Assembly (NCBI GenBank): GCA_017307375.1
Contig: JAFKFH010000005.1
Location: 62,001-126,000, forward strand
Length of the DNA: 64,000 nt
Direction: 5' to 3'
Source: Alphaproteobacteria bacterium
GTDB taxonomy: Bacteria > Pseudomonadota > Alphaproteobacteria > Ferrovibrionales > Ferrovibrionaceae
Positions 19,879-31,130 of the stretch are shown piece by piece. The number at the start of each line of letters is the position of its first letter. Within the stretch, counting starts at the first letter, position 1. The position numbers were made by a program, and so were the translations under genes. Under the pieces are notes generated by a model. That model had not been told where the DNA came from, searched no databases, and worked only from the letters and a program-made list of their open reading frames with translations.

Positions 19879-21447
19879 TCACCACTCGCCGTAAAACACC
19901 CCCGCCTGCTTGTAGCGATGGGTGCCGGCGGCGACGTCGTCCAGGGTCTGGGTCGTCCGCCGCTTCAGGCCGGTGAACCAGTCGAGCAGCCGCTGGCGCA
20001 GCTCGGCCCGCACGGATTCGTGGCCGGGATCGCGTCCCAGATCGAAGAATTCGGCCGGATCGGCCGCCAGGTCGAACAGTTGCGGCGGCAGGTCCTGCCA
20101 GTGGACATACTTCCACCTCGCGGTCCGCACCATCCAGGCGCGGCAGCGATCGGCCGGGCGCCCGAGGATCAGCCGGGCCTGGCGATAGGCGTAATCGAGT
20201 TCGGAGAACACCGCATCGCGCCATGCGTCGTTGGCGCCCGGCCGGGTCAGCGTCAGCAGCGACCGCCCCTCGACTACGTGGCGCGCGGGATCGAGCGCCA
20301 GGGCGTCGAGCGCTGTCGGCACCACGTCGATCGCCTCGACGAAGGCGTCGGATACGGTGCCGCGCGTCGCATCGGCCTGCGGCGCCGGATCATACAGGAT
20401 GAACGGCACACGCTGGACGGTGTCGTGAAACTGTTCCTTCTCGCCAAGCCAGTGATCGCCGAGATAGTCGCCGTGATCGGCGGTGAACACGATCAGCGTG
20501 TCCCGAAAGCGGCCGGACCGGTCCAGCGTCTCGAACAGCCGGCCGAGATGGGCATCGAGCTGGGCGATCAACCCCTGATAGGCCGGCCGCACCTTGTCGG
20601 ACACTTCAGCACGCATGAAGTTCGCGCATTCCTCCTGCTGGCGATAGGCGGCCAGCACCGGATGCTGATCTTCCAGCTCGGCCCCGTGGCGCTGCAGGGG
20701 CAGGCACTGATCCAGCGTGTAGGCGCGGTGATAGGGCGCCGGCGCCATGTAGGGCCAGTGCGGCTTGACATAGGAGAGATGAAGGACCCAGGGGGTATCG
20801 CCCTGCCGCTCGATGAAGTCGATGGCGCGGTCGGTCGTGTAGGCGGTTTCCGAATGCTCCTCCCGCACCCGCGCCGGCAGGTGGACATTGCGCATCTTCC
20901 AGCCGGAGACGACCTCGCCCTGCTCGTCGATCGCGGAGATGACGTAGTCGGTCCAGGGATCGGGGCTGTCGTAGCCCTGGGCGCGCAACCAGGCGGCATA
21001 GGCGCCGTGGGTTTCGGCGTGATGGCCGTCATAGCGGTCGAGCTCGTCGAACCCGCCGCGGCGCAGCAGGGTTTCCAGCTCGCTGTCGCCCTCCATCCGC
21101 AATCGGGCCAGACCGCGCTTGTCGACCATCACATGCGTCTTGCCCGCCAGCGTCAGGCCGAGGCCGGCGGCGCGCAGATGGTCGCCGAAAGTCAGCTCGC
21201 CGACCGGCAATGGCACGCGGTTCCAGGTGGCGCCGTGACTGGAGACGTAACGCCCGGTATAGAACGACATGCGCGACGGGCCGCAGACCCCGGACTGGAC
21301 GAAGGCATTGGCAAAGCGCACGCCCCGGGCGGCCAGGGCATCGAGGTTGGGGGTTTTCAGGTAAGGATGGCCGGCACAGCCGAGATGATCGGCACGCAAC
21401 TGGTCGGCCATGATGAACAAGACGTTGCGCGCACTGGCCTTACGCAT
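19879..21447 (-). CDS. Type I sulfatase (alkaline phosphatase superfamily)
   Basis: This is a formylglycine-dependent sulfatase of 522 residues. NVLFIMADQLRADHLGC carries the metal-binding Asp pair near the N-terminus. QSGVCGPSRMSFYTGRY contains the C-x-P-S-R motif, in which Cys55 would be oxidised to formylglycine. AGKTHVM and FTADHGDYLGDHWLGEKEQF supply the other expected metal and sulfate ligands. There is no signal peptide, so it should be cytoplasmic. It follows the two permease genes and the binding-protein gene on the same strand, which suggests desulfation of an imported sulfated sugar or related ester. A phosphonate or phosphate monoester substrate is an alternative in this superfamily. 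Confidence 0.87.
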   Translation of the reverse strand: MRKASARNVLFIMADQLRADHLGCAGHPYLKTPNLDALAARGVRFANAFVQSGVCGPSRMSFYTGRYVSSHGATWNRVPLPVGELTFGDHLRAAGLGLTLAGKTHVMVDKRGLARLRMEGDSELETLLRRGGFDELDRYDGHHAETHGAYAAWLRAQGYDSPDPWTDYVISAIDEQGEVVSGWKMRNVHLPARVREEHSETAYTTDRAIDFIERQGDTPWVLHLSYVKPHWPYMAPAPYHRAYTLDQCLPLQRHGAELEDQHPVLAAYRQQEECANFMRAEVSDKVRPAYQGLIAQLDAHLGRLFETLDRSGRFRDTLIVFTADHGDYLGDHWLGEKEQFHDTVQRVPFILYDPAPQADATRGTVSDAFVEAIDVVPTALDALALDPARHVVEGRSLLTLTRPGANDAWRDAVFSELDYAYRQARLILGRPADRCRAWMVRTARWKYVHWQDLPPQLFDLAADPAEFFDLGRDPGHESVRAELRQRLLDWFTGLKRRTTQTLDDVAAGTHRYKQAGVFYGEW

Positions 21448-21505
21448 GGCTGACCTGCCCTCCCCCAGGCATCGAGTCGGATACCCGGAAGGAGACTAGC
21501 GCAGT

Positions 21506-22360
21506 TCAGCCCTTGGTGGCACCCGCCGTCAGCCCTGCGACGATGTGCTTTTGCGCGGCAAAGAACATGACGATCGCAGGCAGCACCGTCAGGGTGATGA
21601 AGGCGAGCACGAGGTTCCAGTCGGTCGAGTATTCCCCCTGGTAGACCATGATGCCGAGCGGCCAGGGATAGAGCCCGTCGCGGTTCAGCATGATCAGCGG
21701 CACGAGATAGGCGTTCCAGGAATGGACGAAGACGATCACCGCCGTGGTCGCCAGGATCGGCCGCGACAGCGGCAGGGTCACGTACCAGAAGAACCGGACA
21801 TAGCCGCAGCCGTCGATCGTCGCCGCCTCGAACAGCTCGGCCGGCAACTGGCGAAAATAGTTGCGGAACAACAGCACGCTCATCGCCAGGCCGAAGGCGA
21901 CCTGGGGCAGCACGACGCCCCAGTAGCTGTCGAGCAGGCCCAGGTCGCGAACCCGGATGAACAGCGGCAGGATCGCGGTCGCCGCCGGAAACATCAGCCC
22001 GAGCAGCAGGTAGTTGAGCAGGAAGGTCGCCCCGAAGAACCTGACATGGACGAAGACGAACGCGGCCATCGCGGCGGCCGCGACCGTCAGGATCACGGTA
22101 AGGCCGGCGATGATCAGCGAATTGCCCATCAGCTGCCAGTAGCGCGACGAGGCGAGGATGCCCCAGTAGTTCTCCCACTCCCATGCGGCGGGCAGGCCGA
22201 ACGGGTTGACGCGCAATTCGCCGAGCGACTTGAAGCCGCCGAGCGCGGTGGCGACGAGCGGCACCAGCACGACGCCGGCGACGAGGAACAGGACGCCATA
22301 CCGCAGCACCGGGGCGATCGTCACCGGCGTCTCGTAGGGGCTGGGCGCGTCGTCAGTCAT
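21506..22360 (-). CDS. Carbohydrate ABC transporter permease, MalG type
   Basis: The 284-residue protein has six predicted membrane helices and the permease loop FEAATIDGCGYVRFFWYVTL (the EAA motif that docks on the ATPase). It resembles MalG/UgpE-type sugar permeases (CUT1 family). Its start overlaps the preceding permease gene by 8 bases (22353-22360), so the pair is translationally coupled. It is followed by the sulfatase gene 58 bases downstream. The cognate ATPase is not encoded in this locus. Confidence 0.92.
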   Translation of the reverse strand: MTDDAPSPYETPVTIAPVLRYGVLFLVAGVVLVPLVATALGGFKSLGELRVNPFGLPAAWEWENYWGILASSRYWQLMGNSLIIAGLTVILTVAAAAMAAFVFVHVRFFGATFLLNYLLLGLMFPAATAILPLFIRVRDLGLLDSYWGVVLPQVAFGLAMSVLLFRNYFRQLPAELFEAATIDGCGYVRFFWYVTLPLSRPILATTAVIVFVHSWNAYLVPLIMLNRDGLYPWPLGIMVYQGEYSTDWNLVLAFITLTVLPAIVMFFAAQKHIVAGLTAGATKG

Positions 22361-23297
22361 GGCGCATCGCGACCCGCTTGTAGTCGAAGGCGAAGGCGAC
22401 GCAGATCACGAACAGGACGACGCCGACGGCCGAGCCGAACCCGATGCGCATCCGGGTGACGCCGTAGCTGTAGAGATAGGTCACCATCGTCTGTGTCGAA
22501 TCCGACGGACCGCCCTTGGTCAGCGGCATGATCAGGTCGAACAGCTGGATCGATCCGAGGATGGCGAAGAAGACCGACAGCCTGATCGTCGGGCCGAGCA
22601 GCGGCACGGTGACCCGCGAAAAGATCTGCCAGCCGGTCGCGCCGTCCATATGGGCGGCTTCGTACAGGTTGCGGTCGATCTGCTGCAGCCCGGCGATGTA
22701 GAGCATCATGTGGAAGCCGAAATACTTCCAGACGATGACGCCGAGGATGGCATGGATCGCGAGATCCGGATCGGCCAGCAGATGCGGCGCCTCGACCCCG
22801 AACAGGCCCCAGATCTGCGCGATCAGGCCGTAATCGCCGTCATAGACGAACCGCCAGATCAGTCCGGCCGCGACCTCGGCCAGGATATAGGGCATGAAAA
22901 AGATCAGCCGGAACGTCGTCGCCCCGCGCACCCGGTCGGCCAGCAGCATGGCAAGCCCCAGGGCCAGCGGCAGTTGGACCAGCAGCGACACGGCGATGAT
23001 CAGGCCATTGTTGGTCAGCGCGATCCGGAACGCCCGGTTGGCGAACAGGAGGTCGAAGTTGCGCCAGCCGACGAACTGCGTCGGACTGCCGAAACCGTTC
23101 CAGTTGTAGAACGAATACCACGCCGCCTCGCCCATCGGCAGCGCCACGAACAGCGTGAACAGGAACAGGGCCGGCGGCAGGAACAGCAGGGCGACGCCGG
23201 CCTTCGGCCCGACCCGCCCCGTGACGAAACGCAGCCACGGCGGGGCCTGGAACGCCATGCGCCCCTGCCCCGCCGCCGGTCCGCTCGCGACCGTCAA
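22353..23297 (-). CDS. Carbohydrate ABC transporter permease, MalF type
   Basis: The 314-residue protein has six predicted helices after a short cytoplasmic N-terminus, a CUT1 permease layout. The EAA loop reads YEAAHMDGATGWQIFSRVTV. The first possible start is TTG at 23297, overlapping the binding-protein stop by 4 bases. ATG at 23258 (MAFQAPPWL) with a GGGG-type ribosome-binding site is an equally good start. It pairs with the MalG-type permease that overlaps its 3' end. Confidence 0.9.
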   Translation of the reverse strand: MTVASGPAAGQGRMAFQAPPWLRFVTGRVGPKAGVALLFLPPALFLFTLFVALPMGEAAWYSFYNWNGFGSPTQFVGWRNFDLLFANRAFRIALTNNGLIIAVSLLVQLPLALGLAMLLADRVRGATTFRLIFFMPYILAEVAAGLIWRFVYDGDYGLIAQIWGLFGVEAPHLLADPDLAIHAILGVIVWKYFGFHMMLYIAGLQQIDRNLYEAAHMDGATGWQIFSRVTVPLLGPTIRLSVFFAILGSIQLFDLIMPLTKGGPSDSTQTMVTYLYSYGVTRMRIGFGSAVGVVLFVICVAFAFDYKRVAMRHD

Positions 23298-24565
23298 TTG
23301 GCCAGGACCCAGGCCTGCTGCACTGCCTCGGCCGCCTCGGCCGGCTTCATCCTGCCGGCGGCGATGTCGGTCGACACGTCGTTGACGGTCGCCCCGACGG
23401 CCGGCCCGAGGGCCTGGTCATAGAAGATCTGGTGATACTTCGACCTGGCGACGTTCTGGGCGATCTGGCGCAGGAACGGATTGGCGATCGCATCCTGCGT
23501 GCCGTTGACGACGGGGATATAGAAGCCCCGCTCGGCAGCGATGCGCTGGTTGGCCGCCTCCGAGAAGAAGCGCAGATAGCCGGCAGCGGCCTTGGGTGCG
23601 CCCTTGGTCACCAGCCAGCCGTTCAGCCCGCCCAGCGTGTCGCTGGGATCGCCCTTGCCGCCCGGCACTGTGGGGAAGGCGAACCAGCCGAGCTTGTCGT
23701 CGGGCAGGCCTTTCTTGTCGGCCGCGTTCACCCGCATCGAGTTCAGGACAAAATTGCCCTGCAGCACCATCGCCGCCTTGCCGTCGCCGAACTGACCGGA
23801 GGATTGCGGATAGGTCGTACCGAGGAAACCTGCCTGGAACGGTTTCAGATCGACCAGTTGCTGGAACACCGCGCCGGCCTGCACGAAGGTTTCATCGGCA
23901 AAGCCCTTGCCCTTGCCGGCAATCGCCGCGTCGAAGGCGGGCTTGCCGCCCAGCCGCACGGCCAGGTGGGTCCAGTAGAAATGCAGCGGCCATTTGTCGG
24001 CACCGCCGGCGGTGATCGGGGTGATGCCCGCCGCCTGCAGCTTCTTCACCGCGGTCAGCAGGTCATCCCAGGTCTTGATGCCGTCGGCGTCGACGCCGGC
24101 CTTGGCGAAGAGCTCGCGATTGTAGAAGAAGCCGACCTGCGAGGTGTGCATCGGCACGCCGTAGACCTTGCCGTCGATCGTGTAGGCCTGTACGGCCGCG
24201 GGGATGAACCGGCCGCGCCAGTCGGCATCCATCGCAGGCGTCAGATCCTCGATGACGCCCGCCTTGACCTGCTCGCGCAGCACGCCGCCGCCCCAGGAAT
24301 AGATGATGTCGGGCTTGTCCGACGATTGCAGCAGCGTCGTCAGCTTCTTCTTGTAGGCCTCGTTCTCGAGATACTGCAGTTCGACTTTCGTCCCGGGATT
24401 TGCCGATTCGTAGGCGCGGGCGATGTCGTTCCAATAAGCGACGATCGTCGGGTTCTGCTCGACATGCAGCACGCGGACGGTGGTGGTCTGGGCGCCGGCG
24501 GCACCGGCCAGCATCGCGGCAAGGAACGCGGCCGCGGGCAACGCCCGGCGGGTCAGGTGGGGCAT
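23294..24565 (-). CDS. Sugar ABC transporter periplasmic binding protein
   Basis: The 423-residue protein has a signal peptide (MPHLTRRALPAAAFLAAMLA, cut near AGAQ) and the family 1 solute-binding fold, with VRVLHVEQNPTIVAYWNDIA at the N-terminus, DIIYSWGGGVLREQ and GDGKAAMVLQGNFVL. This family binds mono- and oligosaccharides or glycerol derivatives. The ATG at 24565 follows AAGGAGG. It is the first gene of the arm that includes two permeases and a sulfatase, and is divergent from a ROK regulator. Its ligand cannot be read from the sequence. Confidence 0.92.
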   Translation of the reverse strand: MPHLTRRALPAAAFLAAMLAGAAGAQTTTVRVLHVEQNPTIVAYWNDIARAYESANPGTKVELQYLENEAYKKKLTTLLQSSDKPDIIYSWGGGVLREQVKAGVIEDLTPAMDADWRGRFIPAAVQAYTIDGKVYGVPMHTSQVGFFYNRELFAKAGVDADGIKTWDDLLTAVKKLQAAGITPITAGGADKWPLHFYWTHLAVRLGGKPAFDAAIAGKGKGFADETFVQAGAVFQQLVDLKPFQAGFLGTTYPQSSGQFGDGKAAMVLQGNFVLNSMRVNAADKKGLPDDKLGWFAFPTVPGGKGDPSDTLGGLNGWLVTKGAPKAAAGYLRFFSEAANQRIAAERGFYIPVVNGTQDAIANPFLRQIAQNVARSKYHQIFYDQALGPAVGATVNDVSTDIAAGRMKPAEAAEAVQQAWVLAN

Positions 24566-24598
24566 GGGGCCTCCTTGGTGTTTCCTCGGTTTATTTTT

Positions 24599-24731
24599 TT
24601 CGTTATGCGAATTAAATGATCAAGCCCGATAGCCCGGCAAGTCAAGAGACAATCTGCAGCAGCCGATTTTTTGGCGGCTCCGCCCATTGACAGCCGGACG
24701 ATCCGGCAAATAACTTCGCTATCCGCATTAA
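24599..24731. promoter_or_regulatory. Divergent promoter region with paired operator-like repeats for the ROK regulator
   Basis: The 188-bp gap between the divergent arms holds a 17-base direct repeat: ttcgttatgcgaattaa (24599-24615) and ttcgctatccgcattaa (24715-24731), identical at 14 of 17 positions. The first includes the inverted repeat TTCG-N5-CGAA. A plus-strand TTGACA (24687-24692) with a -10 near 24711 reads toward the regulator gene. Its spacer contains the perfect palindrome GCCGGAcgaTCCGGC (24693-24707). The second repeat abuts the -10. The first lies between the binding-protein start and its presumed promoter. This placement fits repression of both arms by the ROK protein. Confidence 0.55.
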
Positions 24732-24753
24732 TTAGCCGGGTCCGCGATATCAG

Positions 24754-25971
24754 ATGAAGACAGCCGATCCCGAACTGATGCGTGCGATCAACCGCTTCCA
24801 CGTGATGGATGCGATCCGCCGTTCGGGGCCGATCAGCCGGGTGGAAATCTGCGAACAGACCGAACTGAGCCCGACCACGGTCTCGGCGATCACCGCCGCC
24901 CTGCTGGACGACGGGCTGATCACGGCAAGCCCGGTGGCCCCGGCGGCCGACCAGCCTCGCGGCCGGCCCCGGGTGATGCTGAGCCTGAACCCGCAGGCAG
25001 CGGCGGTGTGCGGCGCCAAGCTCGCCCCCAACCAGATCACCATCGCGGTCACCAATTTCCAGGCCGACCTGCTGGCGGGGTTGAGCCTGCCGATCCGGGT
25101 CGATCGCCAGCCGGTGCCGGTCATCCTCGACATCGTCGAGGACGGCGTGCGCCGCTGCGTCGACGATGCCGGGCTGGCGCTCACCGATCTCTCGGGGCTG
25201 TGCATCGGCCTGCCCGGCGTCATCGAGCGCGCGACCGGCATCTGCCGGCAGAGCCCGCTGTTCCGCGAGCGCGACCATGACTTCGGCGCCGACCTGCAGG
25301 CGCGGCTGCAACTGCCCGCGACGATCGATGCCGACGTCAATCTGATCACCCAGGCCGAACACTGGTTCGGCCATGGCCGCGGCCTGAATGATTTCCTGGT
25401 CGTCTCGGTCGAGCATGTCATCGGGCTCGGCATCATCCATGGCGGCGAGCTGTTCCGCGGTGCCGGCGGGCTCAGCCCGGATCTCGGCGATCTCGTGGTC
25501 TGGCCTGGGGCGACACCCGGCCGGCTGTCGGCGACCGCCTCGACCACGGCGATCGCGGCAGCCGCGGCACAGCGCGTCGACGACGCCGCCCTGCGCGGCA
25601 GCCGCGGGCTGGAGCGCGCCGTTCAACTCGCCCGCGACGGCGGCGCCACAGCGCCGGTCTTCGCCCTGGCGGGCCAGGCCCTTGGCGTCGCCATCGCCAA
25701 CCTGATCACGCTGTTCGCGCCACCGCGGGTGATCCTGACCGGATCGGGCCTGCAGGCCGGCGACCTGCTGCTCGGCCCGCTGCGCCAGGCCTTGCGCGAC
25801 GCCCTGCCCGTCGCGCTCGCCGACGTGGCCGAGGTGGTGGTGCACGAAACCGACGATGCGCTGTGGGCACGCGGTGCCGCGGCGCTTTCGCTGCGCGATC
25901 TGTATGGCGCACCGTGGAACACCACGGGGCCGGTGAAGAAATCAAGAAATGGGGGAAGCGACGATGGATAG
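24754..25971 (+). CDS. ROK-family transcriptional regulator (NagC/XylR type)
   Basis: The 405-residue protein has an N-terminal winged helix (NRFHVMDAIRRSGPISRVEI with LSPTTVSAITAALLDDGLI as the recognition region) and a C-terminal sugar-kinase-like ROK domain. ROK repressors bind a sugar or sugar phosphate that releases DNA. The usual zinc site and CxCGxxGCxE motif after the GxGG loop are absent: the equivalent stretch reads GGLSPDLGDLVVWPGATPGR and has no cysteine. It is divergent from the transporter operon and overlaps the oxidoreductase gene downstream, so it probably controls both arms. Confidence 0.88.
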   Translation: MKTADPELMRAINRFHVMDAIRRSGPISRVEICEQTELSPTTVSAITAALLDDGLITASPVAPAADQPRGRPRVMLSLNPQAAAVCGAKLAPNQITIAVTNFQADLLAGLSLPIRVDRQPVPVILDIVEDGVRRCVDDAGLALTDLSGLCIGLPGVIERATGICRQSPLFRERDHDFGADLQARLQLPATIDADVNLITQAEHWFGHGRGLNDFLVVSVEHVIGLGIIHGGELFRGAGGLSPDLGDLVVWPGATPGRLSATASTTAIAAAAAQRVDDAALRGSRGLERAVQLARDGGATAPVFALAGQALGVAIANLITLFAPPRVILTGSGLQAGDLLLGPLRQALRDALPVALADVAEVVVHETDDALWARGAAALSLRDLYGAPWNTTGPVKKSRNGGSDDG

Positions 25972-27049
25972 AGTCGGCGTCGGCATCATCGGCTGCGGCA
26001 ATATCAGCGAGGCCTATCTGAAAGCCGCGCGCGACTTCCCGATCCTCGACATCCGCGGCCTTGCCGATCTCAAACCCGAGGCGGCCGAGGCGCGCGCCAG
26101 CCAGTTCGGACTGCGCGCCCGCGCCATCGACGACCTGCTGGCCGATCCCGCGATCGACATCATCATCAACCTGACGATCCCGGCCGTCCATGTCGCCGTC
26201 GGACTGCAGGCGATCGCGGCGGGCAAGCACGTCCATTCCGAAAAGCCGCTGGGCCTGCGCCTGGCGGAGGCGCGCAGGCTGCTCGACGCGGCGGCGGCGC
26301 GGGGCTTGCGCGTCGGCTGCGCGCCCGACACCTTCCTGGGCGGCGGGCACCAGGCCTGCCGCCGGCTGGTCGACGACGGCGCGATCGGACGGCCGGTGGC
26401 GGGCTCGGCCTTCTTCATGTGCCCCGGCCACGAACGCTGGCACCCGGCGCCCGCCTTCTACTATGCCGAAGGCGGCGGCCCGATGCTCGACATGGGCCCC
26501 TACTACATCACCGCGCTGGTCAACCTGATCGGCCCGGTGGCGCGGGTTTCGGGTTCGACGGCCCGGGCCCGGCCGGAACGGCTGATCACGTCGGAACCGC
26601 TGAAGGGCCAGACCATCCAGGTCGCCGTCGCGACCCATGTCGCCGGCACGCTCGAATTCGCCTGCGGTGCCGTCGTCTCGATCGCGATGTCGTTCGACGT
26701 TCCACGGCATCGGCACGCGCCGATCGAGCTCTACGGAACCGAGGCGAGCCTGATGGTACCCGATCCGAACCGCTTCGGCGGTACCGTCGAAATCGCCAGG
26801 GCCGGCCAGGACTGGGAGACGCAGCCGGTCGAGCACGGCTACGCCGAGGGCAACCACCGCATCATCGGCGCCGCCGACATGGCCCTGGCGATCCGTGAAA
26901 ACCGGCCGCATCGCGCCTCGGGCGACCTGGCGCTGCATGTGCTCGAGGTGATGGAGGCCTTCCAGGTCTCGTCCGACGCAGGCCGCCACGTCACCATAGC
27001 CAGCCGGCCGGATCGGCCGGCGGCGATGCCCGTCGCCGGGTTCGCATGA
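25964..27049 (+). CDS. Gfo/Idh/MocA-family oxidoreductase
   Basis: The 361-residue NAD(P)-dependent dehydrogenase starts with a Rossmann motif (VGVGIIGCGNISEAYLKAA). The conserved EKPLGLRLAEAR carries the catalytic Lys of this family. DMGPYYITALVNLIGPV marks the C-terminal substrate domain. These enzymes oxidise or epimerise sugars and inositols. ATG at 25964 was chosen because GGGGGAAG lies just upstream; an in-frame ATG at 25949 is less well placed. The start overlaps the ROK stop by 8 bases, showing tight coupling. With the ThuA gene that follows it forms a pair common in sugar catabolic operons. Confidence 0.9.
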   Translation: MDRVGVGIIGCGNISEAYLKAARDFPILDIRGLADLKPEAAEARASQFGLRARAIDDLLADPAIDIIINLTIPAVHVAVGLQAIAAGKHVHSEKPLGLRLAEARRLLDAAAARGLRVGCAPDTFLGGGHQACRRLVDDGAIGRPVAGSAFFMCPGHERWHPAPAFYYAEGGGPMLDMGPYYITALVNLIGPVARVSGSTARARPERLITSEPLKGQTIQVAVATHVAGTLEFACGAVVSIAMSFDVPRHRHAPIELYGTEASLMVPDPNRFGGTVEIARAGQDWETQPVEHGYAEGNHRIIGAADMALAIRENRPHRASGDLALHVLEVMEAFQVSSDAGRHVTIASRPDRPAAMPVAGFA

Positions 27050-27062
27050 GGGAGGAAAGAAG

Positions 27063-27713
27063 ATGCGGGAAGCGCTGATCGTCTGGGGCGGCTGGAGCGG
27101 GCATGAGCCCGAGCAATGCGCCGCCATCGTCGCCGGCATGCTGGAAGAGGAAGGCTTCCGGGTCTATGTCGAGAACTCGACCGAAGCCTTCGCCGACCCG
27201 GCCCTCGGCCAGATGAGCCTGGTCGTGCCGATCTGCACGATGTCGAAGATCGAGAAGGAGGAGATCGACAACCTGTCGCGTGCGGTGAAAGGCGGCGTCG
27301 GGCTGGCCGGCTTTCATGGCGGCATGGGCGACGCCTTCCGCGAGGCGGTCGAATACCAGTTCATGTGCGGCGGCCAATGGGTGGCGCATCCCGGCAACGT
27401 CATCGACTACCGCGTTAACGTGACCAGGCCCGACGACCCGATCATGCGGGGGATCGAGGATTTCGCCTACCGGTCGGAACAGTACTACATGCATGTCGAC
27501 CCGTCGAACGAGGTGCTGGCGACCACCCGCTTCGGCGGCGAGCACGCACCCTGGATCGAGGGCGTGGTGATGCCGGTGGTGTGGAAGCGCCACCACGCCA
27601 AGGGCCGGGTGTTCTATTCGTCGCTCGGCCATGTCGCCGCCGAATTCGACGTACCGCAGATGAAGACCATCCTGCGCCGCGGCATGCAGTGGGCGGCGCG
27701 GGAGGCGGCGTAG
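27063..27713 (+). CDS. ThuA domain protein (trehalose-utilisation type)
   Basis: The 216-residue cytoplasmic protein has the glutamine-amidotransferase-like ThuA fold. Visible landmarks are EALIVWGGWSGHEPEQ, GLAGFHGGMGDAF and the C-terminal GRVFYSSLGHVAAEFD. ThuA proteins occur in trehalose and other sugar or sugar-alcohol catabolic operons; in rhizobia ThuAB carries out an oxidation of trehalose or related disaccharides. The exact reaction here is unknown. It begins 13 bases after the oxidoreductase gene with a GGAGGAAAG ribosome-binding site and ends the operon. Confidence 0.87.
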   Translation: MREALIVWGGWSGHEPEQCAAIVAGMLEEEGFRVYVENSTEAFADPALGQMSLVVPICTMSKIEKEEIDNLSRAVKGGVGLAGFHGGMGDAFREAVEYQFMCGGQWVAHPGNVIDYRVNVTRPDDPIMRGIEDFAYRSEQYYMHVDPSNEVLATTRFGGEHAPWIEGVVMPVVWKRHHAKGRVFYSSLGHVAAEFDVPQMKTILRRGMQWAAREAA

Positions 27714-27747: not shown

Positions 27748-28752
27748 TCAGTCCGCCTCGACCCCGCCGGACGGCTGGTAGCGAACGACCTGCTGGTCGA
27801 TGGCGCCGAAGATCGAGCGGCCTTGCGCGTCGAGCATCTCGATGCGGATGCGGTCGCCGAACTTCATGAACGGGGTTTTCGGCGCGCCGTGATCGATCGT
27901 CTCGATCATCCGGATCTCGGCAAAGCACGACCAGCCCTTCGAGCGGTCGTAGTTCGAGATCGTGCCGGAGCCGACGATCGTGCCGGCCCGCAGGTTGCGG
28001 GTCTTGGCCGCATGCGCCACCAGCTGCCCGAAGTCGAACTGCATGTCGGCGCCGCAATCGGGCTGTCCGACCAGCGTGTCGTTGTAGGTCGACAGCAGCG
28101 GCCGATGCACCTTGGCCCCGGCCCAGGCCTGGCCCAGTTCGTCAGGGGTCACCGCGACAGGCGAGAAGGCCGAGGACGGCTTGGCATGGAAAAAGCCGAA
28201 GCCCTTGGCCAGCTCGGCCGGGATCAGCCCGCGCAGCGAGACATCGTTGACCAGCATCAGGAGCTTGATGTGGTCGCGCGCCGGCCCGGCGCTGATGCCC
28301 ATCGGCACGTCGTCGGTGATCACCGCGACCTCGCCCTCGAAATCGATGCCGTAGGATTCCGACGCGACCGGGATATCGTCGCGGGGGCCGAGGAAATCGT
28401 CCGACCCGCCCTGGTACATCAGCGGATCGTGCAGGAATTCCGGCGGCATCACCGCGCCGCGTGCCTTGCGCACCAGCTCGACATGATTGAGATAGGCCGA
28501 GCCGTCGCACCACTGATAGGCCCGCGGCAGCGGCGAGGCGCAGGCGGCCTGGTCGAAATCGAAGTCACCCCGCAGGCTGCCTTCGTTCAGCAGGCGATAG
28601 ACCGCATTCAGTTCCGGGGCCGCCGTCGCCCAATCGTCGAGCGCGGCCTGCAGCGTCGCGGCGATGCCGGGTACCGCGACGGCGCGGGTCAGGTCGCGGC
28701 TGACGACGACCAGGCGGCCGTCGCGGCCGTGACGCAGGGAGGCAAGCTTCAT
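27748..28752 (-). CDS. fahA: Fumarylacetoacetase (FAH family)
   Basis: This hydrolase splits fumarylacetoacetate into fumarate and acetoacetate, the last step of tyrosine breakdown through homogentisate. The 334-residue chain has the metal-binding Glu region (GIDFEGEVAVITDD), MLVNDVSLRGLIPAELAKGF and LRAGTIVGSGTISN, typical of the FAH fold. It lies 6 bases after the homogentisate dioxygenase gene and is the last gene of the hpd-hmgA-fahA operon. The context makes this family assignment specific. Confidence 0.92.
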   Translation of the reverse strand: MKLASLRHGRDGRLVVVSRDLTRAVAVPGIAATLQAALDDWATAAPELNAVYRLLNEGSLRGDFDFDQAACASPLPRAYQWCDGSAYLNHVELVRKARGAVMPPEFLHDPLMYQGGSDDFLGPRDDIPVASESYGIDFEGEVAVITDDVPMGISAGPARDHIKLLMLVNDVSLRGLIPAELAKGFGFFHAKPSSAFSPVAVTPDELGQAWAGAKVHRPLLSTYNDTLVGQPDCGADMQFDFGQLVAHAAKTRNLRAGTIVGSGTISNYDRSKGWSCFAEIRMIETIDHGAPKTPFMKFGDRIRIEMLDAQGRSIFGAIDQQVVRYQPSGGVEAD

Positions 28753-28758
28753 CGCACC

Positions 28759-29916
28759 CTACTCCGCCGCCTGGGCCGGATAGGCCGACGGCCCACCCCA
28801 GGATTGCACATAGCCGGTGAACTCGACCTGGGCGGCGGCATCGCCGATCTCCAGCGCGTCGCGGGTATCGATCATCACCGCCACCTCGTCGGTCTCCTTG
28901 CGGCCCGATTTGGCGCCGGTCGCGAATGCCTTGGGATGCGGCCCGTGGGGAAAGCCGCAGGGATGCAGCGAGATCATGCCGGGATGAATGTTGTCGCGGC
29001 TGAAGAAATTCCCGGCGTGATAGAAGATCACCTCGTCATAGTCGTCGTTGTTATGGAAGAACGGCACCTTCAGCGCCTCCGGATCGGATTCGATCGGGCG
29101 CGGGCAGAAGGTGCAGATGACGAAGCGCTGCGACAGGAATGTCGTATGCGCCGACGGCGGCAGGTGGAAGCGATGGCTCATCAGCGGGCGGATGTCGCGC
29201 CAGTTCAGCCGCACCGGCGCCAGCGTGCCCTTCCAACCCACCGCGTCGAGCGGATTGAACGGGTAGGTCACGGTCGAAATCGCGTTGCGCCGCTTGATGC
29301 GCACCGCCCAGTTGCCCGGCCCCTGCTGGGCCCGGAACGCCTCGTCGAGGCGCGGAATGTCGAGGACGCCGGGATCGAAGATCGCATGGTCGCCGACGAT
29401 GCCCTTCTCGGGCAGGAAATAGCTGTCGTTCGTCGCCTCGATCAGCAGGGCGACCAGTGGCTCGGACGGTTCGATCCGCCACATCGTGCCGCGCGGCAGC
29501 ATGACGTAGTCGCCTTCGCCGATCGTCAGGTGGCCGTAGTCGCAATAGAGCTCGGCACGACCCGAATGGACGAAGATCATGTCGTCGCCGTCGCCGTTGC
29601 GCACCAGGTGGCGCATCGCCCGGGTGGCGCGCCAGTGGCGCAACCGGACCGCGGCATTGTGCAGCAGCACCGGGGCGGCAAACGGGCACTCGTCGTCCGG
29701 GGCGGGCAGCTTGACGGTATCGAAGGCGCGCGGCTTCAGCGGGCCTTCCCAGTCGGTCCAGGCCGTCGGCGGGTTGGCGTGGTACATGTGGGCCGACGGC
29801 CCGAAGAAACCTTCCTTGCCCAGTTCCCGCTCATAGGTGCCGGCGGGCAGCGCGACATGGGCCTGGCGCGACGCCAGGCCCTCGACATGCGGCAGATGGA
29901 TCCAGCTCTTGGCCAT
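28759..29916 (-). CDS. hmgA: Homogentisate 1,2-dioxygenase (short form)
   Basis: This iron enzyme opens the ring of homogentisate to give maleylacetoacetate. The cupin-like chain has PFFHNNDDYDEVIFYHAGNF (Fe ligands His and Glu) and SLHPCGFPHGPHPKAFATG (further His residues). At 385 residues it is shorter than the classical ~430-450. The ATG at 29916 follows AAGGAT. Upstream in-frame starts are inside the hpd gene and lack a ribosome-binding site. It is flanked by hpd (25 bases upstream) and fahA (6 bases downstream) on the same strand. Confidence 0.9.
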   Translation of the reverse strand: MAKSWIHLPHVEGLASRQAHVALPAGTYERELGKEGFFGPSAHMYHANPPTAWTDWEGPLKPRAFDTVKLPAPDDECPFAAPVLLHNAAVRLRHWRATRAMRHLVRNGDGDDMIFVHSGRAELYCDYGHLTIGEGDYVMLPRGTMWRIEPSEPLVALLIEATNDSYFLPEKGIVGDHAIFDPGVLDIPRLDEAFRAQQGPGNWAVRIKRRNAISTVTYPFNPLDAVGWKGTLAPVRLNWRDIRPLMSHRFHLPPSAHTTFLSQRFVICTFCPRPIESDPEALKVPFFHNNDDYDEVIFYHAGNFFSRDNIHPGMISLHPCGFPHGPHPKAFATGAKSGRKETDEVAVMIDTRDALEIGDAAAQVEFTGYVQSWGGPSAYPAQAAE

Positions 29917-29941
29917 GGCGCATCCTTCCCCTTTGCTTGTT

Positions 29942-31015
29942 TTAGGCCGCCGGCGCTTCGAGAACGCCGCGGCGGATCTGGTCCAGCTCGATCGATTCGA
30001 ACAGGGCGCGGAAATTGCCCTCGCCGAAGCCGTCATTGCCCTTGCGCTGGATGATTTCGAAGAAGATCGGCCCGATCACCGTATTGGTGAAGATCTGCAG
30101 CAGCAGGCCCTGGCCTTCGGTCGGGGCGCCATCGATCAGAATCCGCAGCTTGCGCAGCCGTTCGACATCTTCGCCATGGCCCGGCAGGCGCTTGTCGACC
30201 AGGTCGAAATAGGTGTCGATCGTGTCCTGGAACGGCACGCCGTTGGCCATCATGCCCTCGACCGCCTCGTAGATGTCGGACGCACCCAGCGCCACGTGCT
30301 GGATGCCTTCGCCATGATAGGCATCGAGATATTCGGCGATCTGCGACTTGTCGTCGGAGGATTCATTGATCGGAATGCGGATCTTGCCGCAGGGGCTGGT
30401 CATCGCCTTCGACTTCAGGCCGGTCAGCTTGCCCTCGATGTCGAAGTACTTGATCTCGCGGAAATTGAACAGCCGCTCGTAGAAATCCGCCCACTCCTTC
30501 ATCCGCCCGCGATGGACGTTGTGGGTGAGATGATCGAGGTAGCTGAGGCCCGCGCCCTTGGGGTTCTGGTCGACGCCGGGGATCGGCTGGAAATCGACGT
30601 CGTAGATCGTACCCTTGTCGCCATAGCGGTCGACCAGATAGATCAGGCTGTCGCCGATGCCCTTGATGGCCGGGATGTTCAGTTCCATCGGCCCGACCTT
30701 GTTGGCCACGCCCCAGGCGCCCAGTTCGACCGCGCGCTTGTAGGCGAAGGCCGCATCCTTGACCCGGAAGGCCATCGCGCAGATGCAGGGTCCGTGGATG
30801 CGGGCGAAGGCCTGGGCGAAGCTGTCCGGTTCCTCGTTGATGATGAAGTTGATGTCGCCCTGGCGGAACAGCGTCACCCGCTTCGAGCGGTGCCGCGCCA
30901 CGGCGACGAACCCCATCTGCTCGAACAATGCCGCCAGCGCCGCCGGATCCGGCGCGGCGTATTCGACGAATTCGAAGCCGTCGGTGCCCATCGGGTTTTC
31001 GAACAAGTCAGCCAT
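29942..31015 (-). CDS. hpd: 4-hydroxyphenylpyruvate dioxygenase
   Basis: This iron dioxygenase converts 4-hydroxyphenylpyruvate to homogentisate. The 357-residue chain has the two-domain extradiol-type fold. The Fe ligands are recognisable in YLDHLTHNV, GIQHVALG and IFFEIIQRKG, and the C-terminal FGEGNFRALFESIELDQIRRG is highly characteristic. The ATG at 31015 was chosen for its GGAGGA ribosome-binding site over an extension that starts in low-quality coding sequence. It is the first gene of the tyrosine-degradation operon, behind a MarR-type operator palindrome. Confidence 0.95.
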   Translation of the reverse strand: MADLFENPMGTDGFEFVEYAAPDPAALAALFEQMGFVAVARHRSKRVTLFRQGDINFIINEEPDSFAQAFARIHGPCICAMAFRVKDAAFAYKRAVELGAWGVANKVGPMELNIPAIKGIGDSLIYLVDRYGDKGTIYDVDFQPIPGVDQNPKGAGLSYLDHLTHNVHRGRMKEWADFYERLFNFREIKYFDIEGKLTGLKSKAMTSPCGKIRIPINESSDDKSQIAEYLDAYHGEGIQHVALGASDIYEAVEGMMANGVPFQDTIDTYFDLVDKRLPGHGEDVERLRKLRILIDGAPTEGQGLLLQIFTNTVIGPIFFEIIQRKGNDGFGEGNFRALFESIELDQIRRGVLEAPAA

Positions 31016-31130
31016 GTCTTCCTCCGTCTGTCGGGAGGCGCACGGGGCCTGCCACTTGCCGCCCGGGGGGCGGGGCAAACCGGCGCCAGCGTGCCCCGCG
31101 CAGTGCACGGGGCCGTTATGGCGCTCAGTT

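Follow-up and report, generated by a model that had tools for sequence, protein, structure and literature searches.

Two helically phased operator-like motifs at a divergent sugar-transport locus suggest a repression loop for a ROK regulator lacking the cysteine motif

The window (the whole stretch of DNA analyzed here, 64 kb in length) contains a divergent sugar locus, in which a CUT1 transporter arm on the minus strand is separated from a ROK arm on the plus strand by an intergenic gap of 188 bp (24566–24753). The transporter arm starts with the gene of a CUT1-type sugar ABC transporter solute-binding protein (SBP; 23294–24565; PF01547, 146 bits) and continues, on the same strand, with the genes of two ABC transporter permeases assigned by Pfam-level annotation and synteny (permease 1, 22353–23297; permease 2, 21506–22360) and of a sulfatase-type hydrolase (19879–21447; PF00884, 163 bits). 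The ROK arm comprises the genes of a ROK-family repressor of 405 amino acids (24754–25971), a Gfo/Idh/MocA oxidoreductase (25949–27049) and a ThuA-domain protein (27063–27713), the latter two assigned by Pfam and synteny. No ABC ATPase gene was found in the transporter arm of the window (19879–22360), where the sulfatase-type hydrolase gene stands after the permease genes, unlike the rhizobial and Roseinatronobacter loci, which bear a ugpC-like ABC ATPase gene beside the permease genes. Fumarylacetoacetate-hydrolase-like and homogentisate-dioxygenase-like genes lie on the opposite strand after the ROK arm (27748–31108), and an HPPD-like reading frame, judged by eye only, is located beyond the homogentisate-dioxygenase-like gene; all three are outside the conserved locus.

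A contig scan retrieved 36 loci with genes for ROK protein relatives, and further loci were collected from the plasmid records of Rhizobiaceae and Rhodobacterales and from two whole-genome searches. The arrangement of an SBP-permease-permease arm transcribed away from a ROK-Gfo/Idh-ThuA arm, with the divergent SBP start upstream of the ROK gene, was retained in nearly all of the relatives, at a protein identity of about 45–86%. This synteny was found in the records of Microvirga, Kaistia, Beijerinckiaceae-like members, Rhizobiaceae, Rhodospirillales-like members and Roseinatronobacter, of which the ROK proteins were 48–70% identical to that of the window. The sulfatase-type hydrolase gene was absent from all of the relatives' loci as fetched and belongs only to the version of the locus in the window. 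Our search of the open literature found no specific report on a ROK/ThuA/Gfo cluster.

As judged from its domain content, the window protein is a bona fide ROK regulator, with a ROK domain (PF00480, 96.1 bits against a cut-off of 22.9) preceded by an N-terminal winged helix-turn-helix (HTH_24, PF13412, 28.3 bits against a cut-off of 21.9; MarR, 25.0 bits against a cut-off of 24.6). The usual signature of ROK proteins, albeit not a universal one, is a C-x-C-G-x-x-G-C zinc-binding motif together with E-x-G-H. Neither element is present in the window protein, in which the corresponding region (residues 240–265, encoded by 25471–25548) shows a gap and DLGD against CHCGQKGC and EFGH in Lmo0178; the family assignment is based on the ROK domain matches and not on the cysteine motif. 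The cysteine motif and the histidine of E-x-G-H were missing from the relatives compared as well, while both elements (CRCGQxGC and EFGH) were kept in the more distant Inquilinus proteins (L037–L041) and in the paralogue encoded in the window's own genome (L010, 46%). By the NCBIfam equivalog cut-offs, the window protein is an orthologue of neither NagC (120 bits against 650) nor Mlc (125.6 bits against 530). As the clade lacks both the cysteine motif and the E-x-G-H histidine, its effector, or the mode by which the effector is bound, is probably different from that of NagC/Mlc.

The intergenic gap contains two copies of a 17-base repeat, ttcgttatgcgaattaa (24599–24615) and ttcgctatccgcattaa (24715–24731), which are identical at 14 of the 17 positions, lie in the same orientation and are 116 bp apart, precisely as a sequence-only reading of this DNA had described. 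That reading had also placed the repeats as flanking the gap; they are indeed near its two ends, but both lie inside it. A 17-mer pattern allowing up to three mismatches matched only these two repeats in the 64 kb, with 0.14 matches expected by chance. This test is circular, the pattern having been derived from the two copies themselves, and we therefore turned to the relatives for an independent test. A scoring matrix trained on the relatives, with the window and its nearest clade, Microvirga, excluded, ranked the two sites first (35.2 bits) and second (24.5 bits) in the 64 kb, and the next-best place received 9.1 bits when one-base-shifted copies of the first site were set aside. The functional unit delineated by motif matrix and conservation is a pseudo-palindrome of 23 bp, larger than the repeats noted earlier, which correspond to its right two thirds. 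Operator 1 (24594–24616, minus strand; TTTTTTTCGTTATGCGAATTAAA on the plus strand; centre 24605) contains the first repeat and covers the promoter (start region) of the SBP operon, and operator 2 (24710–24732, plus strand; ATAACTTCGCTATCCGCATTAAT; centre 24721) contains the second repeat and covers the -10/start region of the ROK promoter. The two centres are 116 bp apart.

De novo motif discovery by EM was carried out once on the SBP-side halves and once on the ROK-side halves of 30 representative syntenic gaps, and the two runs converged on a single motif (TTTtTT.CG..AtGCGgATTAAAT and AtTaAaT.Cg..tcCCG.AtaAAA). Combined and symmetrised, the motif reads TTTAATnCG-N5-CGnATTAAA over 23 bp, with a correlation of 0.80 to its own reverse complement and the best symmetry axis at the exact centre. 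Furthermore, a matrix made from the left sites only and one made from the right sites only each recovered both of the sites in the window. Both operators occur at the corresponding positions in syntenic loci from several orders of Alphaproteobacteria and track the ROK gene in the relatives, while several of the right-hand sites were weak in the Beijerinckiaceae-like loci. The sequence-only reading had proposed the repeats as candidate operators of the ROK protein and had named their lack of conservation in syntenic loci as what would refute the proposal; the conservation observed here, together with the co-occurrence with the ROK gene, argues for the proposal, and the adjacent ROK protein would be the presumed ligand of both sites. 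Typical sites of ROK proteins have a T-rich 5' end and an A-rich 3' end (PMC4856308), and so does the motif found here. In the five Inquilinus loci (L037–L041), we observed one operator-like site, ATTTTTTTGGTTTACGAATTTAT, beside a TTGACAGG box, and a short AAAATTCGGATC element at the ROK gene in place of a clear second copy of the motif. One of these loci (L041, NZ_VCCH02000017.1) is titled Mycobacterium sp. KBS0706 but clusters inside Inquilinus limosus, and its species label looks wrong.

A genome-wide search with a profile built from 24 sites, in which 150 candidates per genome were scored after a pre-filter, matched exactly two places in the 7.5 Mb genome of the window, namely the two operators, with operator 1 being the best. 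Across 11 genomes, 20 of the 22 matches reported by the same search were at this locus, and the remaining two were the two strands of one place in a single genome (G399). Plain pattern counts elsewhere, in the genome of the window and in others, did not exceed those of reversed controls. We thus rejected a wider regulon, as the pattern searches performed no better than the controls and the profile search of the window's genome matched this locus alone. With no other site in the genome-wide profile search, the two sites look like a local pair of operators dedicated to the ROK gene beside them.

Each of the operators covers the -10/start region of its own promoter, which is the classical place for a repressor. 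The ROK promoter has a -35 box TTGACA at 24687–24692 (plus strand) and a -10-like AATAAC at 24709–24714 with a spacer of 16 bp, so that the second repeat adjoins the -10 of a TTGACA promoter as noted earlier. A point missing from that account is that the first site adjoins a promoter as well: on the minus strand, the promoter scan and conservation indicated a -35 box TTGACT (24640–24645) for the SBP operon, of which the -10-like GATCAT (24621–24616) is next to operator 1. Among the relatives, 49 of 60 loci had a perfect TTGACA 33–39 bases from the operator centre on the ROK side, and all 60 had TTGACA, with one mismatch or none, 36–40 bases from the operator centre on the SBP side. The inverted repeat GCCGGA-CGA-TCCGGC in the spacer of the ROK promoter (24693–24707), which had been singled out in the sequence-only reading, is present and perfect, but the emphasis placed on it was not borne out. 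Any 6-bp inverted repeat was found in this spacer in only 2 of 61 loci, one being the window; we thus rejected the palindrome as a regulatory element and regard it as probably a product of chance.

The distance between the operator centres varied among about 60 relatives in discrete classes of 95, 105–107, 115–120, 127–129, 137–140, 147–149 and 178 bp, with a periodicity of about 10.4 bp (best period of 10.3–10.4 bp in a scan from 5 to 25 bp). When each of the 20 distinct spacings was counted once, the resultant length R was 0.62 at 10.3–10.8 bp, and Monte Carlo p ranged from 0 in 4000 to 0.0018 over five score thresholds under a simple null of uniform distinct integers. In a test on tree-independent pairs, path-disjoint pairs of loci with a spacing difference of at least 5 bp were taken on the maximum-likelihood tree of the ROK proteins; the pairs differed mostly by 9–12, 20–22, 32 or 41–44 bp (V = 0.55–0.79, p from 0.0011 to <0.00002, likewise under a simple null). 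The control distances in the same loci, namely gap length, operator-to-SBP and operator-to-ROK, displayed no such period (p = 0.45–0.87). In two pairs of close relatives (L055/L059 and L108/L051), the difference was one block of 11 bp situated between the -35 boxes. The spacing of 116 bp in the window corresponds to 11.05 turns at 10.5 bp, and this value and those of Microvirga (118–120 bp) together leave about 4 bp of phase spread. The operators thus remain on one face of the helix although their distance drifts by whole turns, as a repression loop predicts; DNA looping, which had been offered earlier as a possibility, gains quantitative support from this phasing.

Several loci fitted the periodicity poorly: L060 (123 bp) has weak sites and is out of phase, L107 and L035 differ by 60 bp, and L097 (175 bp) has a degenerate second site and is out of phase. 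The last of these belongs to a small clade with longer gaps (L095–L097), in which the second operator is degenerate (about 7–8 bits) while a good first operator is present in L095 and L097; this lineage is perhaps losing the loop. The three loci were left out by hand from the first phasing and control tests, of which only L097 would pass the score cut. A retest including them gave the same period, with p of 0.0005–0.0018 at the two lowest thresholds against <0.0002 before.

The operators and promoters move together across the loci, and the phasing could in principle reflect another contact between the two promoters. One could suppose that two ROK operators act independently, each occluding its own promoter with no loop, and that the phase preference has some other origin. 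The overlap of each operator with the -10/start region of its promoter would suffice for steric repression, and paired sites acting independently are common in the divergons of transcription factor genes according to a study on the GntR family (PMC4494728). That study describes independent sites as keeping their distances to the genes while the inter-site distance grows with the gap, whereas in the present loci a period of about 10.4 bp is seen in the spacing of the two sites but neither in the gene distances nor in the gap length. We consider independent occlusion unlikely.

A central third protein, such as CRP or IHF, might instead contact both promoters or both repressors and thereby impose the phasing with no direct ROK-ROK loop, and a helical-phase-dependent pair of repressor and activator in a divergent sugar operon has a precedent in SiaR/CRP of Haemophilus influenzae (PMC2946308). 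EM on the central segments returned a score of 60 against 39–47 for shuffled segments, a signal which may be explained by the shared ancestry of close relatives and which falls far below the 319–399 obtained for the operators. We rejected the central motif on account of this weak signal; moreover, multi-turn changes in the central length would need two separate phases to be preserved, and we regard the involvement of a third protein as very improbable. Finally, the AT-rich ends of the motif overlap the -10 positions and the TTGACA boxes are conserved at a fixed distance, as would be expected if the conserved elements were merely the -10/start regions of the divergent promoters and not operators. 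Promoter parts would hardly take the form of a 23-bp pseudo-palindrome with conserved internal CG dinucleotides, nor keep a single orientation on both sides when the promoters face away from each other, nor would a promoter element match at this locus alone in a genome. We give this interpretation almost no credence.

Altogether, we consider it likely that the operator pair is bound by the neighbouring ROK repressor, which would close a loop over both of the divergent promoters. The comparison shows two conserved copies of one motif, positioned on the promoters, confined to this locus and helically phased; from these we infer the ROK protein as the ligand, its action as a repressor, the looping of the DNA and the induction by a sugar. 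The ROK repressor would bind one 23-bp operator over the start of the transporter operon and the other over the start of its own operon (ROK, Gfo/Idh and ThuA). Without inducer, the bound repressor would contact itself over a distance of about 11 helical turns, and the small DNA loop enclosing the back-to-back promoters would silence transport, catabolism and the repressor together, until the repressor is released by a ligand, either a sugar taken up by the cell or one that has been partly oxidised (a keto-sugar). On balance, we lean toward a ROK clade without the zinc motif that runs an autoregulatory loop, of which the size has drifted from 9 to about 17 turns with the phase fixed.

Repression loops are normally demonstrated promoter by promoter with designed insertions. 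In the loci compared, separate lineages have fixed indels amounting to roughly one, two or four turns, and these expose the phase constraint directly, providing a worked case of DNA looping read from comparative genomics. If the loop is true, the locus represents a natural helical-twist experiment conducted genus by genus, with looping evident from sequence alone. In addition, an uncharacterised clade of ROK proteins, which may control the genes for a sugar ABC transporter, Gfo/Idh and ThuA in soil- and plant-associated alphaproteobacteria, is given a defined operator motif and regulon.

Among the known systems, Mlc of E. coli (PDB 1z6r, 3bp8, 9srt) and Lmo0178 (PDB 5f7p-r) are ROK repressors with an N-terminal winged HTH and resemble the window protein, which is related to further ROK structures as well, over nearly the full length (86–120 bits), but they carry C-x-C-G-x-x-G-C and EIGH/EFGH, both of which are missing from the window protein and the rest of its clade. 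The GntR-family divergons (PMC4494728) are similar in that comparative genomics pointed to paired sites that can act together in divergons containing transcription factor genes; they involve another protein family, the clue there was a near-constant spacing, and the section consulted gave no report of a helical periodicity. SiaR/CRP at nan-siaPT (PMC2946308) shares the helical-phase-dependent control of divergent sugar operons, but a non-ROK regulator and CRP have one operator each there, in contrast to the two sites for one repressor proposed here.

The architecture of the locus and, by analogy, its putative mechanism match the NagC repression loop between nagE and nagB of E. coli. The loop formed by NagC at nagE-nagBACD was reportedly described by Plumbridge and Kolb in 1993. 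Most operons controlled by NagC need two sites and looping (PMC5401889), and altering the phase between the NagC operators derepresses both of the divergent operons, as the loop cannot form (PMC2946308). The two systems have in common a ROK repressor, two operators of the same motif over divergent promoters for sugar uptake and catabolism, and a centre spacing of whole turns with a conserved phase, the sensitivity to which was established by experiment for NagC and is deduced from evolution here. They differ in that one arm of the present locus opens with the repressor gene, so that the loop would also be autoregulatory, and that transport relies on a CUT1 ABC system in place of a PTS. The sequence of the operator, the missing cysteine zinc motif and E-x-G-H histidine in the window protein, and the variation in loop length between species further distinguish the present locus from that of NagC. 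Thus, with the NagC loop itself already known, what is new here is a candidate for a loop of the NagC kind in a ROK clade without the zinc-binding cysteine motif.
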